NCBI GenBank assembly: GCA_025059535.1
Contig: JANXCX010000018.1
Coordinates: forward strand, 1-64,000
DNA length: 64,000 bases
Source: Bacteroidia bacterium
Lineage (GTDB): Bacteria > Bacteroidota > Bacteroidia > SpSt-205
Direction of reading: 5' to 3'
The notes beneath the pieces were generated by a model, which saw nothing but the letters and a program-made list of their open reading frames with translations, did no database searches and was not told where the DNA came from. A program made the translations under genes and the position numbers. Each line of letters starts with the position of its first letter. Position 1 is the stretch's first letter. Positions 1,561-38,951 of the stretch are shown in pieces.

Positions 1561-1704
1561 TTAGTTCCGATTGCGCAGGGTTTTTTCCAAAATATGCATT
1601 CGCCAAGTGAGGTAGCTCATATACCCCAGCAGCGCTACCCATATAATGAGAATTACGGCGACGGTTGTCGGAAACTTCTCGTAAGCCGTAAGCCACTCCT
1701 TCAC
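1561..1704 (-). CDS. CcmD-like single-pass membrane protein (47 aa)
   Basis: A GTG at 1704 opens 47 codons ending in TAA at 1561-1563. Residues 1-13 (KEWLTAYEKFPTT) are followed by one membrane span (about 14-33, VAVILIIWVALLGYMSYLTW) and a charged tail with RMHILEKTLRNRN. The span-then-charged-coil layout with a helix like LEKxLR resembles the CcmD family (small subunit of the cytochrome c haem exporter) of Bacteroidota, but no other ccm gene is in the window. A one-mismatch -7 box ends 5 nt before the GTG, back to back with the promoter of the aminopeptidase gene. Assignment to CcmD is by resemblance only. Confidence 0.6.
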   Translation of the reverse strand: MKEWLTAYEKFPTTVAVILIIWVALLGYMSYLTWRMHILEKTLRNRN

Positions 1705-1709
1705 ATCTG

Positions 1710-1717
1710 TAAAGGTA
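1710..1717 (-). promoter_or_regulatory. -7 box TACCTTTA for the CcmD-like gene
   Basis: One mismatch to TAnnTTTG. It ends 5 nt before the GTG at 1704 and is separated by 1 nt from the opposing box at 1719-1726. Confidence 0.5.
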
Positions 1718-1718
1718 G

Positions 1719-1726
1719 TACTTTTG
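1719..1726 (+). promoter_or_regulatory. -7 box TACTTTTG for the M1 aminopeptidase operon
   Basis: Perfect consensus followed by CCAA and the ATG at 1731. Predicted leaderless. No convincing -33 TTTG is visible at the expected distance. Confidence 0.7.
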
Positions 1727-1730
1727 CCAA

Positions 1731-4316
1731 ATGCGCTTTCCTTTGAGTTGCGGTATAGGCCTTTTCCTTCTTGCCTGCTCTCACAAGGCCCGTACGAAGA
1801 AGGGGGCTGATCGCATGCCTACTCAGGATACGGCTTTTACTCAGGTAGTAGAGGCGTTGCGCCAAGAGACTAAGGCCACTGAAGATACCCTTCTGCGCCC
1901 TGCGCAGGCTCGGCGCTATCAGGGAAGCTATCCCATGCGCTGGCAGCTTATCCATACCGAACTGGATTTAAGTATTGACTGGGCGCGGCGGGAGCTGCCG
2001 GGTGAGGCGCGCCTTACCCTGCGTCCCTACTTTGCCCCTCAATCCGAGCTGGTACTGGACGCCAAATACATGGCCATAGAAAGCGTGCGTTTAGTGCGTC
2101 CTGCTACCGGCACCATTACAGCCCAGCGCTACGATAGCCTCAAGCTCTACCTTACCTTGGACCGACCTTATACGGCTCAGGAAACCGTAGTAGTAGCGAT
2201 TCGCTATCGGGCCCAGCCAGAGAAAATAGGTGAAGGGGGTACAGCAGCGATAGGCGGACGCAAAGGCGCTTACTTTATCAATCCCGACGGTCAGCAGCCT
2301 TGCGTCCCGCGCCAGCTTTGGACCCAAGGGGAGCCAGAAGCCGCCTCGGCCTGGTTTCCTACCTTAGATAGCCCCAATCAAAAATCCACCCAGCGCCTTT
2401 GCGTTACCTTGGAAGATTCCCTGGTTTCCCTCTCCAATGGGCTTTTGGTAAGCCAGAAGAAACTTCCTAAAGGCCTTCGGCAGGATTGCTGGGAGCTCAA
2501 ACAGCCGCACGCCCCCTATCTTTTTGCCCTCATAGTCGGACCTTTCCGCCTAGTAAAAGATACCTGGCGCGGGCGCGAAGTCTCCTATTACCTCGAGCCA
2601 GGATGGGAAAAGCATGCTAAGGCGATTTTTGGAAATACACCCAAAATGTTGGAATTCTTCTCCAATAAACTTGGCGTAGAGTTTCCTTGGCCTAAGTATA
2701 GCCAGGTAATTGTACGCAACTTTGTATCAGGGGCCATGGAAAATACTACTGCTGTGGTCCATGGCGATATGCTCCTCTATGACTCGGCCAAGGCCCTTAC
2801 AGAAGATCATGAGGATGTGATCGCCCATGAGCTCTTCCATCACTGGTTTGGCGACCTTGTAACCTGCGAGAGTTGGGCCCAGCTTCCGCTCAATGAAAGT
2901 TTTGCGGATTATGCGGAATATCTCTGGATAGAGTACAGCCGAGGTCAGGATGAAGCCGAGCGCCTTCGGCGTCAGTCCATGGCCACTTATCTGACCGAAG
3001 CCCGCCAGAAGCAAGTACCCCTCATTCGTTTTGATTATGGGGATCCTATGAATATGTTTGACGCCCATAGTTACCAAAAAGGCGGCTTGGTACTCCACCT
3101 CCTGCGCAACCTAACGGGCGACTCAGCCTTTTTCACAGCCCTGCGGGTTTACCTTCAGGAAAATGCCTATCAAGCGGCGGATATAGACCATCTGCGTCAT
3201 GCTTTTGAGAAGGTTACGGGCGAGGATTGGACGTGGTTTTTTGACCAGTACTTCCGACGACCCGACGAGGTGCGGCTGCTCATCCAAGGCTGGCAAAAGG
3301 ACGATACCTTAGGCCTGCGCATTCTTCAAAGAGGATATGATACACTGCGCGGTCCCTTTCAGTTTCCTACCACTATCGCTATATTTTCCGAGAGGGGATA
3401 CGAGGAACTGCCTTTAGTACTTGTAGGTGATACGCTGCTGACTTTGACTCGGCGCGGGGTTCGCTTTGTGGATGTAGACCCTAAGCGGCTGTGGGTCGGT
3501 TCGGCCCAGCGTACCTATCCCCGCCGATGGTGGGAGGGAATTCTTCAACAGGGGCGCTATTTTTGGGCTCGGGCCCAAGCGCTTACAGAGCTGCAGGCTT
3601 ACTTGACTAGCGATTCTGAAATCTTAGCCCAGGTACTTAGCACTTACTCTAGGGGTAGTCCTGTTTGGCGTCAGCAGGTGTGGGAGGCGCTGGAGTTTGT
3701 AGCCGACTCTGAAGCCTTGGGACCGGTCCTAGCGCTTGCCCGCACGGCTATCCGTGATAGTTCTGCAGCGGTGCGTTTGGCGGCGTGGCAATTCTTGCGG
3801 GCCATGAGCCAACAAGAGCTACTGTCTATGACTGAGTGGCGCTCTGAAATAGAACAGGCGCTCCGCGATCCTAGTAGCGAAGTGCAAAATGCGGCGCTCT
3901 TTGCCTTGTATGAAGCCGATACTATGGCCGCACTGGCCGAGGCGCAGGCCCGTCTCCAAGCGCTCTCAGAAGACATTTTTCTGGCGGCTGCGGCGCTTCT
4001 CCTAGAAGCTGAGAAACCCACAGTGGGTCAGGCGCTTCTTCAGCGTTACCCCTGCCTTCACAGCCTAGAGGCTCGAACGAATGGCCTTTTGCTTTTGGCC
4101 AGCTCTTACGAGCGCTTCCCTACCCTGCGTCCCCAGCTGCTACCCCTTATCCAGCAGGCAGCTCGTACCGAAAATCCCTGGTATCTGCGCCTTCAACTGG
4201 TATATTTCCTCAAGCTTCGCCTGGGGGGTGAAGCCGAGGTTAAGAAACTCCTCCGTGAGCTTAAAGAGGAGGAGACTCATCCCATACTCAAGTCTATTTA
4301 TCAGAAGCTTTTATGA
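1731..4316 (+). CDS. M1 family metallo-aminopeptidase, lipoprotein
   Basis: 861 residues. An N-terminal lipoprotein signal (lipobox LLAC, Cys16) places it at the cell envelope. The gluzincin core is complete: substrate-binding GAMEN near residue 334, zinc site HELFHHW near 366, and the third zinc ligand in NESFADY about 20 residues later. The C-terminal 250 residues look like HEAT-type helical repeats. It removes N-terminal amino acids from peptides, probably for nutrient peptide use. First gene of a rightward operon; its stop overlaps the rlmE start (ATGA). The start is fixed by the promoter 4 nt upstream. Confidence 0.93.
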   Translation: MRFPLSCGIGLFLLACSHKARTKKGADRMPTQDTAFTQVVEALRQETKATEDTLLRPAQARRYQGSYPMRWQLIHTELDLSIDWARRELPGEARLTLRPYFAPQSELVLDAKYMAIESVRLVRPATGTITAQRYDSLKLYLTLDRPYTAQETVVVAIRYRAQPEKIGEGGTAAIGGRKGAYFINPDGQQPCVPRQLWTQGEPEAASAWFPTLDSPNQKSTQRLCVTLEDSLVSLSNGLLVSQKKLPKGLRQDCWELKQPHAPYLFALIVGPFRLVKDTWRGREVSYYLEPGWEKHAKAIFGNTPKMLEFFSNKLGVEFPWPKYSQVIVRNFVSGAMENTTAVVHGDMLLYDSAKALTEDHEDVIAHELFHHWFGDLVTCESWAQLPLNESFADYAEYLWIEYSRGQDEAERLRRQSMATYLTEARQKQVPLIRFDYGDPMNMFDAHSYQKGGLVLHLLRNLTGDSAFFTALRVYLQENAYQAADIDHLRHAFEKVTGEDWTWFFDQYFRRPDEVRLLIQGWQKDDTLGLRILQRGYDTLRGPFQFPTTIAIFSERGYEELPLVLVGDTLLTLTRRGVRFVDVDPKRLWVGSAQRTYPRRWWEGILQQGRYFWARAQALTELQAYLTSDSEILAQVLSTYSRGSPVWRQQVWEALEFVADSEALGPVLALARTAIRDSSAAVRLAAWQFLRAMSQQELLSMTEWRSEIEQALRDPSSEVQNAALFALYEADTMAALAEAQARLQALSEDIFLAAAALLLEAEKPTVGQALLQRYPCLHSLEARTNGLLLLASSYERFPTLRPQLLPLIQQAARTENPWYLRLQLVYFLKLRLGGEAEVKKLLRELKEEETHPILKSIYQKLL

Positions 4317-17830: not shown

Positions 17831-17838
17831 CGAAGGTA
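17831..17838 (-). promoter_or_regulatory. -7 box TACCTTCG for the fadB-like operon
   Basis: One mismatch (TTCG). It ends 5 nt before the ATG at 17825 and is 2 nt from the opposing bamD box. Confidence 0.5.
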
Positions 17839-17840
17839 AG

Positions 17841-17848
17841 TATATTTA
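17841..17848 (+). promoter_or_regulatory. -7 box TATATTTA for bamD operon
   Basis: One mismatch to TAnnTTTG; ends 5 nt before the GTG at 17854. Together with 17831-17838 it forms a back-to-back pair. Confidence 0.5.
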
Positions 17849-38927: not shown

Positions 38928-38935
38928 CAAAGTTC
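38928..38935 (-). promoter_or_regulatory. -7 box GAACTTTG for recN
   Basis: One mismatch to TAnnTTTG; 8 nt before the ATG at 38919 and 1 nt from the opposing box. Confidence 0.45.
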
Positions 38936-38936
38936 G

Positions 38937-38944
38937 TAATATTG
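38937..38944 (+). promoter_or_regulatory. -7 box TAATATTG for the sensor kinase operon
   Basis: One mismatch to TAnnTTTG; 7 nt before the ATG at 38952. Confidence 0.45.
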
Positions 38945-38951
38945 CACCTTG

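Follow-up and report, generated by a model that had tools for sequence, protein, structure and literature searches.

Promoters recognized by Bacteroidota sigma-A consist of a TTTG element at -33 and a TAnnTTTG box at -7 (PMC6847099, PMC9723704), and in Flavobacterium psychrophilum the box spans positions -12 to -5 (PMC9723704). Measured Flavobacterium transcriptomes are mostly leadered; leaderless mRNAs make up only 5.5% in F. psychrophilum (PMC9723704), and 87% of predicted F. johnsoniae transcripts carry leaders longer than 10 nt (PMC6847099). Leaderless genes in Bacteroidetes were already suggested by sequence-based surveys (PMC5397173), and leaderless genes have been described with a TA-like signal ~10–12 bp upstream (PMC3160421). 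In E. coli and other prokaryotes, bidirectional promoters (Warman et al.; PMC12825309) are pseudo-symmetric DNA from which transcription starts in either direction. In E. coli the two directions share one common -10 element, the distance between starts is most often 18, 10 or 23 bp, and promoters at basal activity do not compete; competition arises on strong activation of one direction (PMC12825309).

We examined a divergent gene pair in a 64,000-nt stretch of DNA (the window) from a 1.92 Mb assembly of 25 contigs, of which stretches totalling 0.76 Mb were analysed. The best named protein relatives were metagenome-assembled Bacteroidia isolates (SKYG57, SKYG92, SKYB95, SKYB7), therefore the Bacteroidota -7 consensus TAnnTTTG was the right yardstick. 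Family comparisons covered 12 genomes, the source genome (G000) and eleven relatives (G001–G011). The divergent starts, GTG 1704 (minus strand) and ATG 1731 (plus strand), are separated by 26 nt, and two opposite promoter boxes are the only content of this gap:

1561..1704, minus strand, gene for a CcmD-like membrane protein of 47 aa (TIGR04391 and CcmD_alt matches)
1710..1717, minus strand, -7 box TACCTTTA of the CcmD-like gene (TAnnTTTA mildly enriched before starts; exact boxes in 6/8 relatives)
1719..1726, plus strand, -7 box TACTTTTG of the aminopeptidase gene (exact TAnnTTTG; found in 12/12 orthologues; predicted leaderless)
1731..4316, plus strand, gene for an M1-family aminopeptidase of 861 aa (PF01433, E = 7e-49)

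Read directly from the sequence, the plus box is an exact TAnnTTTG lying 4 nt upstream of ATG 1731, and the minus box (1717–1710) deviates once, at the last G, and lies 5 nt upstream of GTG 1704. In plus-strand order the core is TAAAGGTA (1710–1717), G (1718) and TACTTTTG (1719–1726), so the boxes are 1 nt apart, exactly as originally predicted. By chance, an exact box at 4 nt combined with a box of at most one mismatch at 3–7 nt is expected at ~8e-6 per start pair. GTG 1704 as the start is backed by alignment to MKEWL/VKEWL starts in eight relatives; ATG 1706 was ruled out, as TGA directly follows it. We call the 47-aa product CcmD-like because this copy matches TIGR04391 weakly (E = 0.007; 16.3 bits, below the 24-bit cutoff) and a relative's copy scores just above the cutoff for Pfam CcmD_alt (23.6 bits; cutoff 23.5).

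To place these spacings, 588 genes were called in the 0.76 Mb by a simple codon-usage gene finder, and distances from TAnnTTTG to the in-frame start were measured. Boxes at spacings of 3, 4, 5, 6 and 7 nt numbered 13, 64, 28, 19 and 18, over a background of ~5 beyond 10 nt from the start; scrambled boxes gave 0–4 at any spacing and single-substitution boxes such as TAnnTTCG up to 9. An exact box at 3–7 nt preceded 138/588 genes (~23%) and 93/252 likely first genes (scrambled boxes, 0–1), and the start codon was GTG in 42/142 box-coupled cases. Among deviant forms, TAnnTTTA was mildly enriched 4–6 nt before starts (4, 4 and 3 genes) and TAnnTTCG at a spacing of 4 before ATG (9 genes). G was rare at both variable positions of the box, as reported for F. 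johnsoniae. The string TAnnTTTG-N4-ATG occurred 152 times in the source genome vs 6 for the reversed control (~25x), a signal common to the whole family; other Bacteroidia families mostly showed ~1–5x control, and one reached ~10x on small counts. Since the box occupies -12 to -5 in Flavobacterium, a spacer of 4 nt makes +1 coincide with the start codon, so that many genes of this family seem to be transcribed from their first codon. With boxes at such fixed distances (4 and 5 nt), both genes of the locus are predicted to be leaderless, a property that the original prediction overlooked. While the measured Flavobacterium transcriptomes are mostly leadered, the spacing in the source genome is instead predicted to put the start on the first codon. 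The arrangement resembles the TA-like signal of other leaderless genes (PMC3160421) in being a -10/-7-type box at a fixed short distance from the start; here it is the Bacteroidota TAnnTTTG box, occurs in about a quarter of genes and is often doubled back to back.

We found no counterpart of the -33 element. In 154 aligned leaderless boxes, information was strong solely in the box and the start codon, with a faint A/T preference 5–10 nt upstream, and no -33 motif (TTTG, TTG or GTTTG) rose above background. At the ccmD/aminopeptidase site itself, the -33 place expected of a sigma-A promoter, with TTTG ~19–21 nt upstream, contained neither TTTG nor TTG in either direction. The leaderless set of the source genome is thus unlike the described Bacteroidota sigma-A promoter in having no detectable -33 element, and we class the site as -7-box promoters with sigma-A-like action rather than as complete promoters with two elements. 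It had been claimed that each upstream promoter half must lie inside the opposite coding sequence; this is geometrically true of the DNA, but no -33 motif is present there, at this site or in the 154 boxes.

We consider it likely that the 26 nt between the starts act as a compact bidirectional promoter, in which two Bacteroidota sigma-A -7 boxes face opposite ways. Either box would set the transcription start at, or at most one base from, its start codon, leaving both mRNAs leaderless and without a separate 5′ UTR. Polymerase would occupy the site in one orientation or the other, and successive binding events would give modest expression of both genes. Because leaderless genes need no intergenic room, their promoters could come to lie back to back, and the 1-nt spacing would be an accident of compaction, in the low tail of a broad distribution of gaps, rather than a selected switch. 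The minus promoter, in which the final G is missing and which serves a GTG start, may be weak. The footprint of polymerase far exceeds 27 nt, therefore a single polymerase should be bound at a time; from this size we infer that the opposed elements are close enough for mutual exclusion. The earlier claim that two polymerases could not bind at once stands insofar as simultaneous binding is very likely impossible, but this is not special to the site and holds for all compact pairs: exclusion is equally true at gaps of 13–17 nt, so that exclusive occupancy would be a by-product of compaction. As in the bidirectional promoters of E. coli, the DNA is pseudo-symmetric and would allow starts in either direction, one binding event would exclude the other, and the start sites would be close together. 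Unlike E. coli pairs with their common -10 element, the locus has two separate, abutting -7 boxes with ~27 nt between the predicted starts, and the transcripts expected in both directions are leaderless and coding.

The boxes were well conserved among relatives. In 12/12 family genomes the aminopeptidase box was exact and lay 4–6 nt upstream of the ATG of the orthologue. The divergent ccmD-like gene lay beside the aminopeptidase gene in 9/12 genomes including the source, and three had no ccmD there. Exact ccmD boxes were present in 6/8 relatives with the same gene pair (five at 4–5 nt, one at 11 nt); G003 and G006 had no clear box upstream of ccmD. It is possible, though we think it unlikely, that the aminopeptidase box alone works and that the minus box is a degenerate relic, ccmD being weakly expressed or transcribed by antisense or read-through. 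The deviation in the minus box, the GTG start and the orthologues in G003 and G006 lacking a recognisable ccmD box would all fit such decay, but TAnnTTTA is itself somewhat enriched before starts, and the exact boxes in most relatives with the pair, nearly all at leaderless spacing, point to a working ccmD promoter. In G005, the aminopeptidase match (G005:C1:2028314-2030891) falls into two reading frames that overlap, and a single in-frame TGA is reported, which suggests a frameshift or an assembly error.

The spacing between the boxes was not conserved. Inter-box gaps at ccmD/aminopeptidase were 1 nt in the source and 13, 13, 15, 17, 17 and 71 nt in orthologues; boxes are kept and the 1-nt spacing is not, so that judged by these alignments the site is not a conserved switch. 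Other tight pairs behaved similarly between G000 and G005, with gaps going from 1 to 25, 2 to 21 and 5 to 25 nt, and one pair staying at 9.

Back-to-back boxes were common. Exact leaderless boxes stood on both sides of 18/82 divergent pairs in the source genome (in one of the 18 the boxes were crossed instead of back to back) and on one side of 37/82, and 1.2 Mb of G005 contained 45 exact start-coupled pairs, with at most 69 nt between the boxes. A search for CAAAnnTA-N(0-3)-TAnnTTTG, as had been proposed, returned 6 exact sites vs 0 for the reversed control in the source genome and 46 vs 2 in the 12 family genomes. The original prediction of divergent sigma-A-type -7 boxes is thereby borne out, as these are strongly enriched genome-wide and conserved in orthologues. 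Across the 12 genomes, back-to-back boxes with gaps of 0–3, 4–7, 8–15 and 16–31 nt numbered 46, 76, 182 and 277 (controls 2, 4, 4 and 6), or 11.5, 19, 22.8 and 17.3 per nt of gap (controls 0.4–1). Per nt, gaps of 0–3 nt thus occurred at about half the rate of gaps of 8–15 nt (p = 1.6e-5), and a preferred fused geometry was rejected on these frequencies. In 48 other Bacteroidia, gaps of 0–3 nt were near chance (270 vs 212). Overlapping boxes sharing TA (CAAAnnTAnnTTTG) showed a modest excess (39 vs 12 control). Single-gap counts were uneven in six family genomes (gap 8, 1; gap 9, 20; gap 14, 18), probably because orthologues were counted repeatedly; G005 did not show this pattern. The back-to-back layout thus recurs throughout the genome and the family, and a gap of 1 nt marks one extreme of a wide range.

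These distributions also bear on the idea that the fused geometry is a selected switch, in which exclusive occupancy would cause ccmD and the aminopeptidase gene to be expressed in anticorrelation or in a random direction. Tight pairs do occur far above chance, and with boxes 1 nt apart simultaneous binding is sterically implausible, but we regard a switch here as improbable: the orthologous gaps are wide, 3/12 genomes have no ccmD beside the gene, the shortest gaps are underrepresented per nt, and no functional link between the CcmD-like and aminopeptidase genes is apparent. The two directions of an E. coli bidirectional promoter do not compete at basal activity (PMC12825309), therefore mutually exclusive expression is not expected without strong activation; the claim that expression should be mutually exclusive or randomly directional is thus not supported as something inherent in the layout, nor do orthologues keep the 1-nt gap. 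That the near-palindrome TAAAGGTA-G-TACTTTTG, symmetric at 6/8 positions, is instead the operator of a dimeric transcription factor is highly improbable, since the orthologous half-sites lie 13–71 nt apart yet mostly 4–6 nt from their own starts, which is promoter-like and not operator-like, and their sequence is the known -7 consensus. With the compact bidirectional promoter as the favoured reading, what is new is a predicted leaderless, -33-free and pervasive back-to-back arrangement, and possibly also the conserved recN site, but not a ccmD/aminopeptidase switch.

The same layout had been predicted at two further places in the window, between starts 17825 and 17854 and between 38919 and 38952:

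17831..17838, minus strand, box TACCTTCG upstream of an enoyl-CoA hydratase/3-hydroxyacyl-CoA dehydrogenase gene (start ATG 17825, spacing 5 nt; TAnnTTCG enriched at spacing 4 before ATG)
17841..17848, plus strand, box TATATTTA upstream of a YfiO-like lipoprotein gene (start GTG 17854, spacing 5 nt; PF13525)
38928..38945, no strand assigned, 18-nt element CAAAGTTCGTAATATTGC between recN (minus strand) and a sensor kinase gene (plus strand) (15/18 positions invariant in 12 genomes)

Opposed boxes were present at both, with one deviation in each box and gaps of 2 nt (TACCTTCG / TATATTTA) and 1 nt (GAACTTTG on the minus and TAATATTG on the plus strand, inside CAAAGTTCGTAATATTGC). The first gene pair is not conserved, and the second is a different case, non-canonical in its boxes and near-invariant. 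By eye, the lipoprotein gene of relatives has other upstream neighbours, and one of these reads as a tRNA gene.

At the third site, recN was assigned by TIGR00634 and its divergent neighbour is a two-component sensor kinase. The invariant 15/18 positions of CAAAGTTCGTAATATTGC in 12/12 family genomes compare with an average column identity of 59% over the aligned region, and the element is an imperfect palindrome, CAA-nn-TT-nnn-AA-nn-TTG. It matched neither known Bacteroidetes SOS motif (CTAA-N5-TTAG or GGA-N5-TCC; PMC8565304), and is not a widespread repeat, as no second copy at ≤2 mismatches occurred in 0.76 Mb of the source genome. Its pattern was also matched outside the family and once more in G006, with no recN start adjoining those matches. 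So strong a constraint, which the ccmD site lacks, implies that a pair of -7 boxes is not the whole explanation; a regulator may bind here, for example, or the fused promoter may itself be selected.

A second persistently tight spacing was seen at a bshB1-like PIG-L deacetylase gene (named by eye from sequence) divergent from a secreted protein of ~482 aa (in the middle of loci L277, L280–L286 and L166). Its fused promoter, CAAAnCTAC-n-TAGCTTTG, was seen in ten family genomes, and its gap is 3–6 nt in each. The tight gaps kept here and at recN (1 nt in all twelve) indicate that spacing can be constrained at particular sites. At the bshB1-like pair, one variable position of the box is a G, a base seldom used there in TAnnTTTG boxes. 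A bolder family-wide reading, which we hold to be less likely than not, is that leaderless initiation made a lone -7 box self-sufficient, that divergent pairs are in general driven by closely opposed boxes, with hardly any further DNA between the genes, and are coupled through polymerase occupancy, and that in a few cases (recN/sensor kinase, bshB1-like/secreted protein) strong selection has acted on the fused arrangement itself as a regulatory device. On the favoured reading, the family would be a lineage whose promoters, start sites and start codons are compressed into ~12 nt and whose divergent genes share one polymerase-sized piece of DNA. It would let one ask directly if Bacteroidota can transcribe and translate without a -33 element and a 5′ leader, and if coupling of occupancy between neighbours has consequences.
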